Part shown: positions 14,123 through 20,449 of the stretch, piece by piece
Layout: the number at the start of each line of letters is the position of its first letter
Position numbering within the stretch: position 1 is the first letter of the stretch
Origin: Deltaproteobacteria bacterium
GTDB taxonomy: Bacteria; Desulfobacterota; GWC2-55-46; DRQE01
DNA length: 36,321 nt
Direction: 5' to 3'
NCBI GenBank assembly: GCA_015492245.1
Contig: WGFM01000026.1
Span: 1-36,321 of the forward strand
The notes under the pieces: generated by a model
Databases searched by the model: none
What the model was told of the DNA's origin: nothing
The model's input: only the letters and a program-made list of their open reading frames with translations
Made by a program: the position numbers and the translations under genes

Positions 14123-14593
14123 TCAGTTCGCCATCACCCCCACCATGACAGGCCATGGATAGAGACCGGGTGCTGTGTTGTCTGCAAGGTAGAACCTGTA
14201 GTTTATAACCTTTGTCATATATCCAGTAACTCCTGGATAGGGCTCATAGACAGCTCCTCCACTGGATAGGATGCTCACCACCGTTGTTCCAGAGTCCACC
14301 TCGATTTCACTGAATGGGGTATCCACTGCGCGCTCGAAATAGATCACATAGGAGCTGTTGGTCTTTACCCTGAGGACCGTTCCGCTGTGAATCTCGACAT
14401 AACCTCTTTTCACATCCGCCCTGGTTACCTCGATGGCACCTGCCTGGTCAACCACCTGAGCACTGAGCACCGGAAGAACCCTTGCATACACCCTAACCTC
14501 TGCGCTGCCACTTCCTGCGTGGGCAACGCCTCCGTAGAGTGCCATGAACCCTAAAACCATCACTATGATTATATCTTTAAGTAGCCTCTTCAT
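14123..14593 (-). CDS. Small secreted protein, pilin-like, linked to the chaperone-usher locus
   Basis: A 156-residue exported protein. The signal peptide MKRLLKD-IIIVMVLGFMALYGGVAHA has a clear Ala-X-Ala site; the mature part is rich in short beta strands (AEVRVYARVLPVL, RGYVEIHSGTVLRVKT) and ends in alternating hydrophobic strands (INYRFYLADNTAPGLYPWPVMVGVMAN), the type of ending seen in chaperone-usher subunits. No cysteine pair is present in the mature part, unlike the two SCPU pilins upstream. Reading frame is open further upstream, but ATG 14593 has AGGAGG 9 nt before it and begins the signal peptide. It follows the sigma-54 activator gene after 284 bp and has a sigma-54-like promoter (14622-14637). 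A role as minor or alternative pilus subunit is inference. Confidence 0.7.
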   Translation of the reverse strand: MKRLLKDIIIVMVLGFMALYGGVAHAGSGSAEVRVYARVLPVLSAQVVDQAGAIEVTRADVKRGYVEIHSGTVLRVKTNSSYVIYFERAVDTPFSEIEVDSGTTVVSILSSGGAVYEPYPGVTGYMTKVINYRFYLADNTAPGLYPWPVMVGVMAN

Positions 14594-14621
14594 CTTCTTG
14601 TTCCTCCTGCCCATATATATA

Positions 14622-14637
14622 TGAAAGAACCATGCCA
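14622..14637 (-). promoter_or_regulatory. Sigma-54-like (-24/-12) promoter of the secreted pilin-like gene
   Basis: Minus strand TGGCATGGTTCTTTCA compared with the consensus TGGCAC-N5-TTGCA: the -24 GG and the -12 C with correct spacing are kept, while the C of GGCAC and the G at -13 are both T. The start would lie near 14611, about 18 nt before the ATG, leaving room for the AGGAGG site. The adjacent gene encodes a sigma-54 activator, which supports the call; the changed -13 base weakens it. Confidence 0.5.
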
Positions 14638-14700
14638 AACTCCTAACCACTTGAAATACAAGGATATTTCTTCCAGCCACGATGGATGGACCACCACTCT

Positions 14701-14720
14701 TGTGTGCGTTTTCGCACACA
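14701..14720. repeat. Perfect 8-bp inverted repeat, candidate activator-binding site
   Basis: Arms TGTGTGCG and CGCACACA around TTTT. The centre lies about 99 bp upstream of the predicted start of the sigma-54-like promoter, a normal position for an enhancer site bound by an NtrC-type activator. No T-run follows on either strand, so it is not an intrinsic terminator. Confidence 0.55.
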
Positions 14721-14877: not shown

Positions 14878-16203
14878 CTAATCGATGGAATATTTCTGTA
14901 GTTTTCTTATCAGTGCCCGTCTGCTTATCCCCAGGGCCTGGGCTGCCCTGGTTCTGTTTCCATCGTATCTTTTGAGCACACTCTGGATGTGTCTTCTCAC
15001 CACCTCATCGAGGGTGAGGCGTGGCTGTATTGGGGAGGCCTGCTGGAAGTCTTCTTTCATGTAGGATGGAAGGTCTTCCACCCTTATGAAGGGTTCTTTT
15101 GCAAGGATTGCAGCCCTTTCTATGACATTCTCGAGCTCTCTCACATTGCCTGGCCAGTGGTAGGAAAGAAGGAGCCTCTGGGCAGGCCGTGATATACCGG
15201 TTATCTTCTTGCCCGTTCTCTGCGAGAAGAGGGAGAGGAAGTGCCTTAAGAGAAGCAGTATATCGTCCCTTCTCTCCCTCAGCGGGGGTATGTATATGGT
15301 TATGGGGGTGAGCCGGTAGTAGAGGTCTTCACGGAATCGGCCCTCTTTCACCTCTTCCCAGAGGTCCTTGTTGGTGGCAGCTATCACCCTGCACTCTGCC
15401 CTGAGGGTCATGTTGCTGCCCACGGGTCTGAACTCTCCATTTTGCAGCACCCTCAGAAGATGGGGCTGCACAGACAGGGGAAGCTCACCCACCTCGTCAA
15501 GGAAGATGGTGCCCCTTCGGGCGGTCTCGAAGAGCCCCTTCTTGTCTGCCACTGCCCCTGTGAATGCACCCTTCTTGTGTCCAAAGAGCTCACTCTCTAT
15601 GAGGGTCTCGACCACCCCTCCACAGTTGAAGGTAACGAAGGGCTCGTCCTTTACAGGGCTTGTCTCGTGTATGGCCCGTGCTATGAGCTCTTTGCCTGTG
15701 CCTGTCTCACCTGTGATGGTTACTGTCCTGTAGTAGGGGGCGATGCGACGGATGAAGCTGAAGACCTCGAGCATCTGGGGGTTTCTTCCCACGATACCAC
15801 TGAAGGTGTACTTCCTTGTAAGCTCCCTCTCGAGGGTTGCGGTCTCCACCCTCAGGGCCACAAGCTCCCGTATGCGCTCTATGAGTCTTCTGAACTCCTC
15901 GGTATCTACCTCGGTGCGGAAACACCCGCTCGCGCCCTCCCTCAGGGCATCCACCACATCCACCTGGCCGTCTCCAAAGAGGATGACCTCTGGTCTCGGG
16001 TCCCTGTGCTTTATGCTCTTTAGAAACTCGATATTGTCGCCTATCATTACCACATCGTAGCTCTTACGGGCCACCGTTGAAAGCAGCTCTCCCTCTGCCA
16101 CGCTCTCTACCACCTCATCACTTATTACATCCTTTATGTGTTCTGGAAGATGAAGAGACCCTGATACGAGGATCTTCAATGTGGGATACTTTCTTTCTAC
16201 CAT
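14878..16203 (-). CDS. Sigma-54-dependent transcriptional activator with degenerate receiver domain
   Basis: An NtrC-family enhancer-binding protein of 441 residues. Residues 9-125 have the receiver fold pattern but lack its chemistry: the acidic pair after the first strand is replaced by SGS (LKILVSGS), the third strand ends MIGDN out of register for the phospho-acceptor, and the lysine of the fifth strand is missing. The AAA+ domain is complete: Walker A GETGTGKE (165-172), sigma-54 contact loop GAFTGA (212-217), Walker B FLDEVGE (234-240), and WPGNVRELENVIERA. A Fis-type DNA-binding helix-turn-helix ends the protein (about 400-441, NRTRAAQALGISRRALIRKLQ). Its ATG overlaps the end of the second SCPU pilin gene by 7 bp (ATATGGTAG) without its own Shine-Dalgarno, so it is the coupled last gene of the pilus operon. 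Likely target: the sigma-54-like promoter just downstream. Confidence 0.94.
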   Translation of the reverse strand: MVERKYPTLKILVSGSLHLPEHIKDVISDEVVESVAEGELLSTVARKSYDVVMIGDNIEFLKSIKHRDPRPEVILFGDGQVDVVDALREGASGCFRTEVDTEEFRRLIERIRELVALRVETATLERELTRKYTFSGIVGRNPQMLEVFSFIRRIAPYYRTVTITGETGTGKELIARAIHETSPVKDEPFVTFNCGGVVETLIESELFGHKKGAFTGAVADKKGLFETARRGTIFLDEVGELPLSVQPHLLRVLQNGEFRPVGSNMTLRAECRVIAATNKDLWEEVKEGRFREDLYYRLTPITIYIPPLRERRDDILLLLRHFLSLFSQRTGKKITGISRPAQRLLLSYHWPGNVRELENVIERAAILAKEPFIRVEDLPSYMKEDFQQASPIQPRLTLDEVVRRHIQSVLKRYDGNRTRAAQALGISRRALIRKLQKYSID

Positions 16204-16652
16204 ATTACTGTAACAACCAGTGTGTCGTTATATGTTCCCACACTTACATTCTGTCCTGGGGGTATTCTGCCATACACAGTAAGTGATGTAGCCCTGTTTC
16301 TCCTCACCCATGCTATCCTGAAGATGGTACCACCTGTGCCGTTTCCCCAGATCCGCGTGCGATTGCTGTTCGTATAGAGGTTGTAGTCAAGAAGGTCGGG
16401 AAGGCTGGTGTGCTTCATGCTGCGCGGGTTGAACCCGCCGGAGTTGTTGCTGGGCCCTATGGTCACTATTACCAGCGCATTTCTGGAGCAACCTATCGTG
16501 ATGGTGCCTGTTGTGTCAAGTGGGGTGGGGGACAATGTATCGTAGGTGCCGAAATCAACTGTAGAGGCACTCACACTACACTGAGCCCACACCGAAGTGC
16601 CTGCCATGAGCACATACAGCAGAACACCTATCAGGACATTCCGAAATCTCAT
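16197..16652 (-). CDS. SCPU-domain (spore coat U type) pilus subunit
   Basis: A 151-residue exported protein: signal peptide up to AQC (MRFRNVLIGVLLYVLMAGTS then VWA), then one classical SCPU domain with CSVSASTVDFGTYDTLSPTPLDTTGTITIGC, the RSM and LLDYNLYTN segments, WGNGTGGT, YGRIPPGQNVSVGTYNDTL and a final beta strand TVIW. These are the subunits of archaic chaperone-usher pili (Csu type). Cys pair in the N-terminal part probably forms the disulfide. AAGGGG precedes ATG 16652. Lies between the usher and the activator. A two-domain tip adhesin is absent, so this gene may supply the tip or a minor subunit (inference). Confidence 0.88.
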   Translation of the reverse strand: MRFRNVLIGVLLYVLMAGTSVWAQCSVSASTVDFGTYDTLSPTPLDTTGTITIGCSRNALVIVTIGPSNNSGGFNPRSMKHTSLPDLLDYNLYTNSNRTRIWGNGTGGTIFRIAWVRRNRATSLTVYGRIPPGQNVSVGTYNDTLVVTVIW

Positions 16653-16713: not shown

Positions 16714-19713
16714 CTATCTTATAACCCTTATCTCCACCCTCCTGTTGAGTGCCCTTACATCTGATACATGGCAGCACTCGCCCATGCCCATTATGTTTAT
16801 AAGCCTTGCCGGTATACCGCTTTCCTCGAGGGCCTTCTTTACCGTTATGGCCCTTCTTACAGAAAGCCTATGGTTGTACTCTTCTGTGCCTATATCACAT
16901 GTGTAGCCTTTAACATCTATCCTTCTCAGCTCGACACCCTCAAGTGCCCTTGCAAACTGCCTGATCCTTTCGACCTCTTCACTTCTCAGGCTGTGTCTGT
17001 CGAAGTCGAAGTGTATGACTATGGAAAGGGGTGCTGCCTTTTCGGTCTCCTCCTGTGGTCTGGCCGCCTGTGGTTTGGCAGCAGGTGCTGGTGGTGTCAG
17101 AGGAGGCTTTACAGCAGGACTTACAGATGATGGCACCTTTTCTTCCACATCTGCCTCTGTCTCCATGGCAGTTGCAGCCACCTGCTTTCCCTCTTCTCTC
17201 ATCTCTTCGGCAGGTTGCGGGGCTTTAGCCCATCTGACATTTCTACACACCACATCTCCAACCTCGACGAACATCTCCTCCGATGGGGGCACATCTATCA
17301 GTGCCTCGCACTCGCCTTCCTCGAAGAGAAGCCTTACAGTGTGGACCCCCTGTTTGAGAAGTCTCAGGTCATCACCCTCCATGAACACACATCTTTCCTC
17401 GTCCTCCTCTATTACCTCCTCTTCCTGCCTGAAGTTGTCCATGTAGAACTCCCCGTCACTGCCCGTATCGAACAACACCTCTCCATCCGGAAGCACCATG
17501 ACAACCTCTTTGTACTTCATTGGTTCTCTTCTGCCGTCCACCTCCATGAACAGCCTTCCGGTGAGGAGCTGAATCTTTCTTATACCGAAGTCCAGGCAGA
17601 ACCCTCCCATAAGTGCTGGAGACACATACTTCATAACCTCTGGCACATAGTAGTCCATGGGGAGGTCTCTCACTTTGATGGAAACCTGGTTGTCGATGTA
17701 TGAGGCGAGGGTGGGAATAAAGAGGTATCCCTCTTCATCTGTTCTGCCCATCAGCTGGCTGTTGACATATACTGGCACATCTTCGAGCCTGTCGACCCTT
17801 ACAAGCCCGAAGCTACCACGAACAGGTCTCGAGAGTCCAACCTTTCCCCCAAGGCTGAGCACAGAGCCAGAAAAAGACAACCTTGTATAGTTTCTACTGC
17901 CTGAGGTGGAGTCCTCGAGTGTCTGGTCTATCCTGTATATTCCATGGTCTGCGTTGATCTGCAAGGACGGGTCCACCCTGTTTGTGGTTACACTGGGGGT
18001 AGTGTCCCTCTCAAAGAGAACCCTCCACCCATAGCCCTCTCCAGCGGGCATCCTGTTCTGTATCTGAACCTTCGCATTCTCACCTGATGTCTCTTTTGTG
18101 TAGCCTGTATTCACATATACATCCTTTCCTGCTGGATAATAATTGAGCCCCAGGAAGAACTCGTTTGTATCTGCCCCTGCCTCCACCCTCTTGAGGCGTG
18201 TATAGAGGATAAATTCTCTACTGAGGGTCCTTGAATACCTTACGGAGTATTCCCGTCTTTCTCGCCCGTTGTGGTATCTGACCGAGTTTATGTTGGCCGC
18301 TATCACACCACCTTCGGTGGTGCCATAGTTCACACCTCCACCCACCTCGTACTTCACCCCCAGGGATGTGCCGTTAATACTCGATATGTTTTCATAATCC
18401 TCTGTGTATGCACTCACAGAGAGGCTTGCGCTCTTGTTCTCCCTTACATAACTGTAGCCCAGAGAGCCCGCCCCACCGCCTCTGCCATCGGTGTTGCTTC
18501 CCCTTACCCTCACCGTAACGAGCCCTGCTTTCGGAAAGACCCTCGATACATCTGCTCCAAGATTCACGAATCCCTCTGAAAGCTCTGTGCTCAGGCCTGC
18601 TGTAAGGAAATCGGTAAAGCCATAACGGTGAAACCCCGTGAGGACAGGCTTATCGTAGGAAAAACTTTTCAACCCGAAGTCCTCCCTCTTGACCCCCACA
18701 GCATAGCTGTACTCATGCAGCCCCTTGCTGAGCACCGTGTCTGTAAAGTAGTAGGGGTACCTAAGCCTTCTCTCAACCCCGAAGGCATCCCTAATGACCA
18801 CCTCCACAGTCCTTGAACCCACTGTCTGGTAGATATTTCGCAGTTCGAACTCCCCTGGCGAGAGCCGTTCCCTGCTTATGAGCACATTGTCCATGTAGAC
18901 CTCTACATCTGAGGGTGTGGTCAGGAACCCGCGGATATTCAGCTTTGGCTGTTTTATGAAGTAGGGGTTTATGGTGAACACCTTTGAGAAGCTCACCCCA
19001 CCGAGCATCACACTGCCCCCCAGCCCACCTGACGAACCTATGAAGTCTCCCAGAACGAGCCTTGTCATATCCTCCCTGTCATCGTGGGTCAGGCTTGTTG
19101 AAAGGCGGCTGAACCTCTCTTCCGTATCGTTCCTTGTATACGATGTATCTGTAAGGAAGAGCCATCCCCGGTGCCTTATGCCCAGTTGGTTGGTGAGCGT
19201 GAAGGTCTCAAAATCCGCTCTGTCATCATGAGTGTATACGAGCCCGTAGTTCAAGAAGGCAGCAGAGTGTTCTGGCCTGAAGACCCTTTCAACCCTCCTT
19301 GCTCCCATGTCAACCACATGTAGCCTCAGGAGCCTCGGGGCTGCCGTTATGGAGAGCGCTATGGCTTCTTCGTCAAGGCTGAAGCTCACCCCTTCTATGG
19401 AGCTAAGGGATATGTAGGACTCACCTTCAACAGTTACCATCCTTCCCTCTATACCCTCTCTGAAGCCCATCTCCTCGAGGTCCTCCATCCTGACGAGGAA
19501 GTCCCCATCATCGGTGAGAACCATGAAGAACTCTCCCCTGCGTTCATGGTTCACCACCACATCCGCTATTATCATCTCATCTGAAAGGGCTGTATATGGG
19601 AGGCAAAAAAAAGAAAAAAAGATTGTTCCGCATACAAGAAAAACATGTATGCGTTCTATGAAGGCGGCGGATCTATCGTTTTCTCTAAGGCACACACATC
19701 GCCTTCTGGACAT
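16714..19713 (-). CDS. Chaperone-usher outer-membrane usher fused to a C-terminal OmpA-like domain
   Basis: A 999-residue usher that would secrete and assemble the SCPU subunits through the outer membrane. Order: signal peptide (to about 45), periplasmic N-terminal domain (47-125, MIIADVVVNHERRGEFF), the long beta-barrel starting near FLNYGLVY (153-160), a plug-type segment (DVEVYMDNVLIS, SPGEFELRN, 269-293), then the usher C-terminal domains up to about 745. Beyond these lies an acidic segment, a Pro/Ala/Lys-rich linker (about 830-895) and an OmpA-like domain (896-999) with IHFDFDRHSL, TCDIGTEEYN, LSVRRA and ALNRRVEIRV. The peptidoglycan-contact residues Asp940 and Arg954 are present. Ordinary ushers are about 800-870 residues and end before this linker. 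The ATG overlaps the chaperone gene by 29 bp; a GTG at 19695, with AGAAGG 6 nt upstream, is an alternative start. Confidence 0.93.
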   Translation of the reverse strand: MSRRRCVCLRENDRSAAFIERIHVFLVCGTIFFSFFCLPYTALSDEMIIADVVVNHERRGEFFMVLTDDGDFLVRMEDLEEMGFREGIEGRMVTVEGESYISLSSIEGVSFSLDEEAIALSITAAPRLLRLHVVDMGARRVERVFRPEHSAAFLNYGLVYTHDDRADFETFTLTNQLGIRHRGWLFLTDTSYTRNDTEERFSRLSTSLTHDDREDMTRLVLGDFIGSSGGLGGSVMLGGVSFSKVFTINPYFIKQPKLNIRGFLTTPSDVEVYMDNVLISRERLSPGEFELRNIYQTVGSRTVEVVIRDAFGVERRLRYPYYFTDTVLSKGLHEYSYAVGVKREDFGLKSFSYDKPVLTGFHRYGFTDFLTAGLSTELSEGFVNLGADVSRVFPKAGLVTVRVRGSNTDGRGGGAGSLGYSYVRENKSASLSVSAYTEDYENISSINGTSLGVKYEVGGGVNYGTTEGGVIAANINSVRYHNGRERREYSVRYSRTLSREFILYTRLKRVEAGADTNEFFLGLNYYPAGKDVYVNTGYTKETSGENAKVQIQNRMPAGEGYGWRVLFERDTTPSVTTNRVDPSLQINADHGIYRIDQTLEDSTSGSRNYTRLSFSGSVLSLGGKVGLSRPVRGSFGLVRVDRLEDVPVYVNSQLMGRTDEEGYLFIPTLASYIDNQVSIKVRDLPMDYYVPEVMKYVSPALMGGFCLDFGIRKIQLLTGRLFMEVDGRREPMKYKEVVMVLPDGEVLFDTGSDGEFYMDNFRQEEEVIEEDEERCVFMEGDDLRLLKQGVHTVRLLFEEGECEALIDVPPSEEMFVEVGDVVCRNVRWAKAPQPAEEMREEGKQVAATAMETEADVEEKVPSSVSPAVKPPLTPPAPAAKPQAARPQEETEKAAPLSIVIHFDFDRHSLRSEEVERIRQFARALEGVELRRIDVKGYTCDIGTEEYNHRLSVRRAITVKKALEESGIPARLINIMGMGECCHVSDVRALNRRVEIRVIR

Positions 19714-20449
19714 CTAACCTGCCTGAAAAGTCCACCCTGTCGGTATCAACAGCAACACCTATCTCTTTCAACCTCTCACAGACATCCTTCTTGAGTTTTA
19801 CCCTGTACACCCTCTTTACCCCGTGGAGCAGGTACCACCCTGCAATGCTTTCTTCAAACACCTTCTCTCCCTTCTCGTCCAGGCCTGTAACACCTATGGT
19901 GTTTATCCTGAAGTGCACATTGCCGCTGTTCTTTATGGTAATGAGAAGGGCTCCATCATTCAGTTCCATCTTCTCTATATCTCCTGCGACCTTCTCTCTC
20001 ACGGGCTTGACGAAAACTGGCACACCGAACCTCAGTGCTATATGCACGGCCGTTGCCTTCTTCTTTATATCCTCGGGCACACCCTGTATGAAGATCCTGT
20101 AGGTCCTCTCCACGCCAGCCGGTGGCATCTTTACCCCGAGCCTTATGGCACGCCTCTTTTCGGGCTCAACAGTAATGACCTTTGGATAATATATTATGTC
20201 CTTCGAAGGGGTGTAGAGGTCTTTACCCTCTTCATCCTGCTTCCACTCCACAAGCTTTGCCTCGAACTTGAACCTCTTCTTGTCGTCGTTTATTATGGTT
20301 ACAATAGCTGACCTTACATTCCCACTGAAGACCACCTTTATGGGGGCTATCCTGAAACCCTTTGTGTGGGCCGGTGTAGAGATCAGGATAGAAGATAGAG
20401 ATACAATACCAGTATATAGGATCAGCCTTTTCAGAACCCTCTTCATCAT
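19685..20449 (-). CDS. Periplasmic pilus chaperone, PapD-like
   Basis: A 254-residue exported protein (signal peptide to about STPAHTKG). Such chaperones fold pilus subunits by donor-strand complementation and hand them to the usher. Domain 1 contains FRIAPIKVVFSGNVRSAIVTIIND and the family-typical ERTYRIFIQGVP; domain 2 begins near DIEKMELNDGALLITIKNSGN. Reading frame is closed just upstream, so start is ATG 20449 or 20446; no good Shine-Dalgarno precedes it closely (GGGAGG is about 25 nt away). It overlaps the usher start by 29 bp and follows a large palindrome after the first pilin. Confidence 0.88.
   Translation of the reverse strand: MMKRVLKRLILYTGIVSLSSILISTPAHTKGFRIAPIKVVFSGNVRSAIVTIINDDKKRFKFEAKLVEWKQDEEGKDLYTPSKDIIYYPKVITVEPEKRRAIRLGVKMPPAGVERTYRIFIQGVPEDIKKKATAVHIALRFGVPVFVKPVREKVAGDIEKMELNDGALLITIKNSGNVHFRINTIGVTGLDEKGEKVFEESIAGWYLLHGVKRVYRVKLKKDVCERLKEIGVAVDTDRVDFSGRLDVQKAMCVP

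Follow-up and report, generated by a model that had tools for sequence, protein, structure and literature searches.

In the window (the whole stretch of DNA analysed here, 36,321 nucleotides), an operon on the minus strand encodes, in order, an SCPU-domain pilin, a chaperone, an usher fused to an OmpA-like domain, another SCPU subunit, a sigma-54 activator and a small secreted beta protein (Table 1). It lies downstream of rpsD-rpoA and a short ribosomal gene that follows rpoA. The pilin-chaperone-usher-SCPU core is kept in deltaproteobacterial relatives, its order is that of annotated SCPU operons, and nearly all relatives have an SCPU subunit in the same place after the usher.

Table 1. Genes of the operon and parts of the fusion protein, with positions in the window.
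Feature	Position	Strand	Evidence
SCPU-domain pilin, 154 aa	20568..21032	-	PF05229, E=1.8e-9
PapD-type periplasmic chaperone, 254 aa, overlaps usher start	19685..20449	-	PF00345, E=1.4e-13
Usher-OmpA fusion gene, 999 aa	16714..19713	-	Translation, Pfam Usher and OmpA, AF2 model, Foldseek
Usher part, ~residues 46-828	17230..19578	-	AF2 strand list; Foldseek FimD/PapC
Pro/Ala/Glu-rich disordered linker, residues 831-895	17029..17223	-	pLDDT <50 over most of 831-894
OmpA-like domain, residues 896-999	16717..17028	-	PF00691, PDB matches, Foldseek
Second SCPU-domain subunit, 151 aa, directly after usher	16197..16652	-	PF05229, E=3.7e-33
Sigma-54 activator, AAA+ and Fis HTH	14878..16203	-	PF00158, E=5e-67
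Secreted beta-sandwich protein, 156 aa from likelier start Met43	14123..14593	-	Synteny, AF2, Foldseek

Judged by sequence, the system is an archaic/sigma chaperone-usher system, with SCPU subunits encoded together with chaperone and usher. Known archaic systems, namely Csu of Acinetobacter (PMC9452303; PMC4654587) and two plasmid-borne SCPU operons (L091 and L092), share with it the SCPU subunits, the PapD-type chaperone, an SCPU protein after the usher and a FimD-like translocon fold. The window system differs from them in the C-terminal linker and OmpA domain of its usher and in having a sigma-54 activator within the operon. By analogy, its second SCPU subunit would occupy the tip position of archaic operons. 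In archaic systems this can be a two-domain tip adhesin, as with CsuE, although this is not universal. The window protein has a single SCPU domain and so is not a two-domain tip adhesin, unlike in Csu-type systems; the proteins after the usher in L091 and L092 are likewise single-domain-sized.

The sigma-54 activator is likely the operon's regulator. Its position is the same in the related loci L060 and L061, and it is divergent in L065 and L066. No Pfam receiver was matched in its first 130 residues, though the protein is built like a response regulator. Its gene begins inside the 3' end of the SCPU gene, so the pilus operon may encode a dedicated regulator that acts independently of phosphorylation.

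The small secreted protein was modelled with a pLDDT of 82 and weakly matches FimG/FimA in Foldseek (TM ~0.5, E ~0.02). Its homologues are operon-encoded in relatives, and on this structural and syntenic evidence it is possibly a minor pilin. In other genomes (L062, L064, L067, L069 and L074), homologues of this protein (window 14123-14719) are encoded between the pilins and the chaperone and are fused to an N-terminal region. This region is non-secreted and contains a putative transmembrane segment as well as DUF4388-type (PATAN/MshEN-like) repeats. The window copy lacks this N-terminal part. Such fusion proteins may form a control link from cytoplasm to periplasm for the chaperone-usher system.

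The usher gene is a single open frame with no internal stops, and the initial annotation was right to describe a continuous frame running from a full-length archaic-type usher through a linker of about 65 residues into a complete OmpA-like domain. Both domains match Pfam above the curated cut-offs: Usher (PF00577) at residues 175-694 (E=1.1e-27, 97.5 bits against a cut-off of 27.1) and OmpA (PF00691) at residues 902-984 (E=1.6e-13, 51 bits against 27.2). In the AlphaFold model (15 sequences, pLDDT 74.6, pTM 0.59), residues 151-621 form a barrel of 24 strands (6 + 18) with a plug at ~259-318 between strands 6 and 7, followed by beta-rich C-terminal domains (CTDs) at ~634-828. The N-terminal domain (NTD, 46-124), which would take up chaperone-subunit complexes, has no separate Pfam match, and is beta-rich in the model with a pLDDT of ~81-89. 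After the disordered segment, residues 897-998 fold as beta-alpha-beta-alpha-beta-beta, an OmpA-type fold, so the model agrees with the limits originally given for the domain. Foldseek gives FimD (3rfz) as the top match of the usher part (E=6.9e-41), and matches the tail to the peptidoglycan-binding domain of OprF (5u1h, TMt 0.74, rmsd 2.3 A). By sequence, the tail matches the class 4 protein, OprF and YfiB in the PDB, and YfiB is also the closest NCBIfam OmpA model. A single protein thus combines an intact usher translocon with a folded OmpA-like domain, joined by a flexible linker of ~65 residues. It is the sole usher in its genome (1.88 Mb in 35 contigs), where its tail is one of four OmpA matches.

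FimD and PapC (3rfz, 2vqi) share with this usher the 24-strand barrel, the plug and the periplasmic CTDs, and probably the periplasmic NTD, but are only 14-15% identical to it and stop after CTD2. The tail, in turn, resembles the OmpA C-terminal, Pal, OprF and YfiB domains (5u1h, 4zhy, 1r1m) in fold and general sequence, whereas its partner is an usher and theirs is a small barrel, a lipoprotein or MotB. We also observed an acidic insertion in CTD2 (usher residues ~760-790, window 17345-17435) that is common to L007, L008, L010, L013 and others, with many relatives lacking it. Separately, the C-terminal stretch of a photosystem I PsaB (PDB 7f4v chain aB) matches the window OmpA domain (E=3.6e-6), so an OmpA-type tail also occurs in a further large membrane complex.

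Since the window comes from a draft genome of 35 contigs, two genes might have been joined by an assembly chimera, a frameshift or a missed stop. However, the same fusion occurs in frame in a separately assembled genome of the same genus (G001; Deltaproteobacteria bacterium isolate HyVt-575, DRQE01000073, L007/L060), and a further, independent OmpA-usher fusion is found in JACRNO010000027 (L062). These independent genomes, together with the absence of a stop in the window frame, rule out an artefact, to which we give practically no weight. The two same-genus fusions are 55% identical across residues 54-999, and their ushers are only 60% identical. Divergence at codon positions 1, 2 and 3 is 0.32/0.23/0.57 in the OmpA part and 0.26/0.22/0.53 in the usher part; in the OmpA part, as in the usher part, third positions thus show roughly double the divergence of first and second positions, indicating that the OmpA domain is under protein-level selection. 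The linker diverges faster than the domains on either side of it.

Ushers above the cut-off are found in 20 of 395 sampled genomes of the phylum and 11 of 63 genomes of the class. With all searches combined, the usher gene was readable to its 3' end in 47 genomes, five of which (G000, G001, G031, G091 and G477) carry an OmpA tail, while most have no tail. Other tails also occur. In another family of the class, the usher of G062 (L017) ends in a tandem SPOR tail (PF05036, E=2e-22); here, a duplicated CTD2-like domain precedes the two SPOR domains at the C terminus (contig C100). The usher of G480 (L128, C345) has a long Pro-rich linker and an extra C-terminal domain of ~180 residues with no Pfam match, where its close relatives have OmpA or nothing. 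Among plasmids, 130 records matched, of which a single one spanned 80% of the query; among the best 30 of these 130 matches, no record reached the usher and the OmpA part together.

The OmpA tails fall on three separate branches of the usher tree, each beside tail-less relatives at 100/100: the window usher and L007 beside L008, L010 beside L011, and L013 within a genus (g67) where several members have no tail. The SPOR tail is on a fourth branch, apart from these. In the domain tree, a single clade of all four tested OmpA tails is rejected (AU p=0.00024). The L013 domain groups with OmpA proteins of its own genus (99/97), while the L010 domain sits on a long branch, with 41% identity to Pal and an AU p of 0.06 for grouping with the window domain. 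Counts of changes alone do not separate gain from loss; it is the different donors of the OmpA tails (at least two) that show the gains to be separate. Since the g67 ushers L013 and L125 share a linker, we count them as one origin, and the sequences suggest a single OmpA gain in this genus, followed by losses and one replacement. Both trees contradict a single-origin class of OmpA-ushers. The earlier proposal of one distinct class does not hold, as tailed ushers are not a clade, their nearest relatives are tail-less, and one genus shows both loss and replacement of the tail.

This patchy distribution could mean that the usher C terminus is merely a site that tolerates the gain and loss of domains, and that the OmpA tail is largely or wholly without function. 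The differing tails of close relatives, the losses and replacement in g67 and the tail-less majority of the 47 ushers all fit such a view. Nevertheless, we consider it improbable: the codon-position bias reveals constraint on the OmpA part between ushers that have diverged this far, the cysteines, arginine and fold of the domain are kept, and both tail kinds identifiable with Pfam (OmpA and SPOR, leaving aside the L128 tail, which has no match) are of a peptidoglycan-binding type.

In Acinetobacter baumannii OmpA, diaminopimelate is contacted by Asp271 and Arg286 (PMC12108004). HMMER aligns the GHTD of solved OmpA domains with GYTC in the window domain. Asp271 is the D of GHTD in A. baumannii OmpA, and the contact-Asp column of the window domain holds Cys939, with Asp940 one residue later. 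Arg954 is at the contact-Arg position, matching Arg286, and Asn947 is also kept. The initial annotation had listed Asp940 and Arg954 as retained contacts; this stands for the arginine, which the domain shares with OmpA, Pal, OprF and YfiB domains, but not for Asp940. The domain has additional cysteines at Cys980/Cys981, and the contact Asp is likewise Cys in the same-genus homologue. The tails of L010, L013 and L125, on the other hand, keep the contact Asp.

The same GYTC...CC signature is found in free-standing OmpA proteins in four genomes of the class (L023, L024, L027 and L028). All members of this subfamily have Cys in place of the contact Asp, and the second Cys pair is conserved, while Asp940 is not (S or A in L024, L027 and L028). 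With Cys939 replacing the contact Asp and Asp940 not conserved, the canonical diaminopimelate contact is incomplete. The free-standing proteins (~220-250 aa) belong to TraL/TraE operons of F-type conjugation systems, in contrast to the window domain, which is part of an usher. The neighbours of L027 (G027) are a DsbA-like thioredoxin, an SLT transglycosylase, a weakly matching TrbC/VirB2-like pilin and TraE (E=1e-38); those of L023 (G054) include TraL (E=2e-9) and TraE (E=2e-38), and L024 and L028 have the same layout judged by eye. In these operons the four genes lie between the lytic transglycosylase and the TraA/VirB2-like pilin, and their products are possibly an undescribed envelope component of type IV secretion systems (T4SS).

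In the domain tree, the window domain and the four T4SS proteins form one branch (100/100). As a result, the sequences make it most likely that the window tail was taken from an OmpA family serving F-type conjugation machines. Descent from the Pal, MotB or NHL-OmpA proteins of the same genome is rejected, since these have other positions in the tree. The window tail suggests that an anchoring domain has been transferred between conjugation and chaperone-usher systems, which are unrelated pilus machines.

The loss of the contact Asp throughout the subfamily, alongside a conserved second Cys pair, raises the possibility that the window domain no longer binds peptidoglycan, but docks onto another envelope protein and positions the usher by protein-protein contact. 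The free-standing members, encoded beside a DsbA-like thioredoxin, a transglycosylase and Tra proteins, would fit such a role in an envelope-spanning complex. In a variant of this explanation, a disulfide between Cys939 and Cys980 or Cys981 might stabilise the domain for a different ligand. However, the domain retains Arg954, Asn947 and its entire fold, and the usher fusions that arose independently involve canonical OmpA and SPOR domains, which suggests that all of them target the wall. The window's own genome also has no TraE, so the conjugation partner is absent. We therefore regard docking, in either form, as rather unlikely.

Instead, we think it probable that, in this uncultured bacterium, the assembly platform of an archaic/sigma-type adhesive pilus carries its own periplasmic tether to the cell wall, through putative peptidoglycan binding. 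The NTD and CTDs of ushers act in the periplasm (PMC12122975), which supports the original view that the topology is right for a wall anchor, and by the same reasoning places the C-terminal extension in the periplasm. The OmpA domain would sit below the CTDs, and the linker would allow it to extend to the wall while the NTD and CTDs stay free for handing over subunits. By gripping the peptidoglycan, it would pass pilus tension on to the wall rather than to the outer membrane alone, and fix the platform laterally. A mechanical tether has a plausible use, given that archaic pili bear a load of ~23 pN at clinch opening (PMC9452303). Against this stand Cys939 in the window lineage, the fact that most ushers of the group work without a tail, and the loss or replacement of the tail in g67.

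Other usher lineages have fused other OmpA domains, and one of them SPOR domains. SPOR domains bind peptidoglycan glycan. The feature common to these tails is that the C terminus, on the periplasmic side, ends in a domain of a peptidoglycan-binding type. This is so on three OmpA branches, of which one probably took its domain from conjugation machines, and on one SPOR branch. Since such domains were acquired on several separate occasions among related ushers, wall tethering looks like a recurring solution; and since lineages independent of one another placed wall-binding types of domain at the same terminus, they presumably share a benefit, most simply a mechanical one. The independent OmpA gains from different donors, together with SPOR in one relative, add to the evidence for a tethering role. 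On balance, we lean towards a convergent design, in which archaic-type usher lineages have independently added wall-binding domains that fix their pilus platforms mechanically to the wall.

Consistent with the novelty originally claimed, we found no description of an usher with an OmpA or SPOR tail in the open-access literature searched, although earlier database annotation is possible. The parts are known, while their combination and its convergence appear undescribed. Two structural papers on chaperone-usher pili (PMC9452303; PMC12122975) do not mention peptidoglycan or address the force path into the envelope. Ushers have been treated as held by the outer membrane alone, with the pilus held by the usher. 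The repeatedly acquired, putatively wall-binding tails provide a natural experiment, with the same machine present with and without the proposed tether in sister lineages. These lineages allow tests of what wall anchoring may contribute to the force bearing of pili, the mobility of their assembly platforms and the integrity of the outer membrane.
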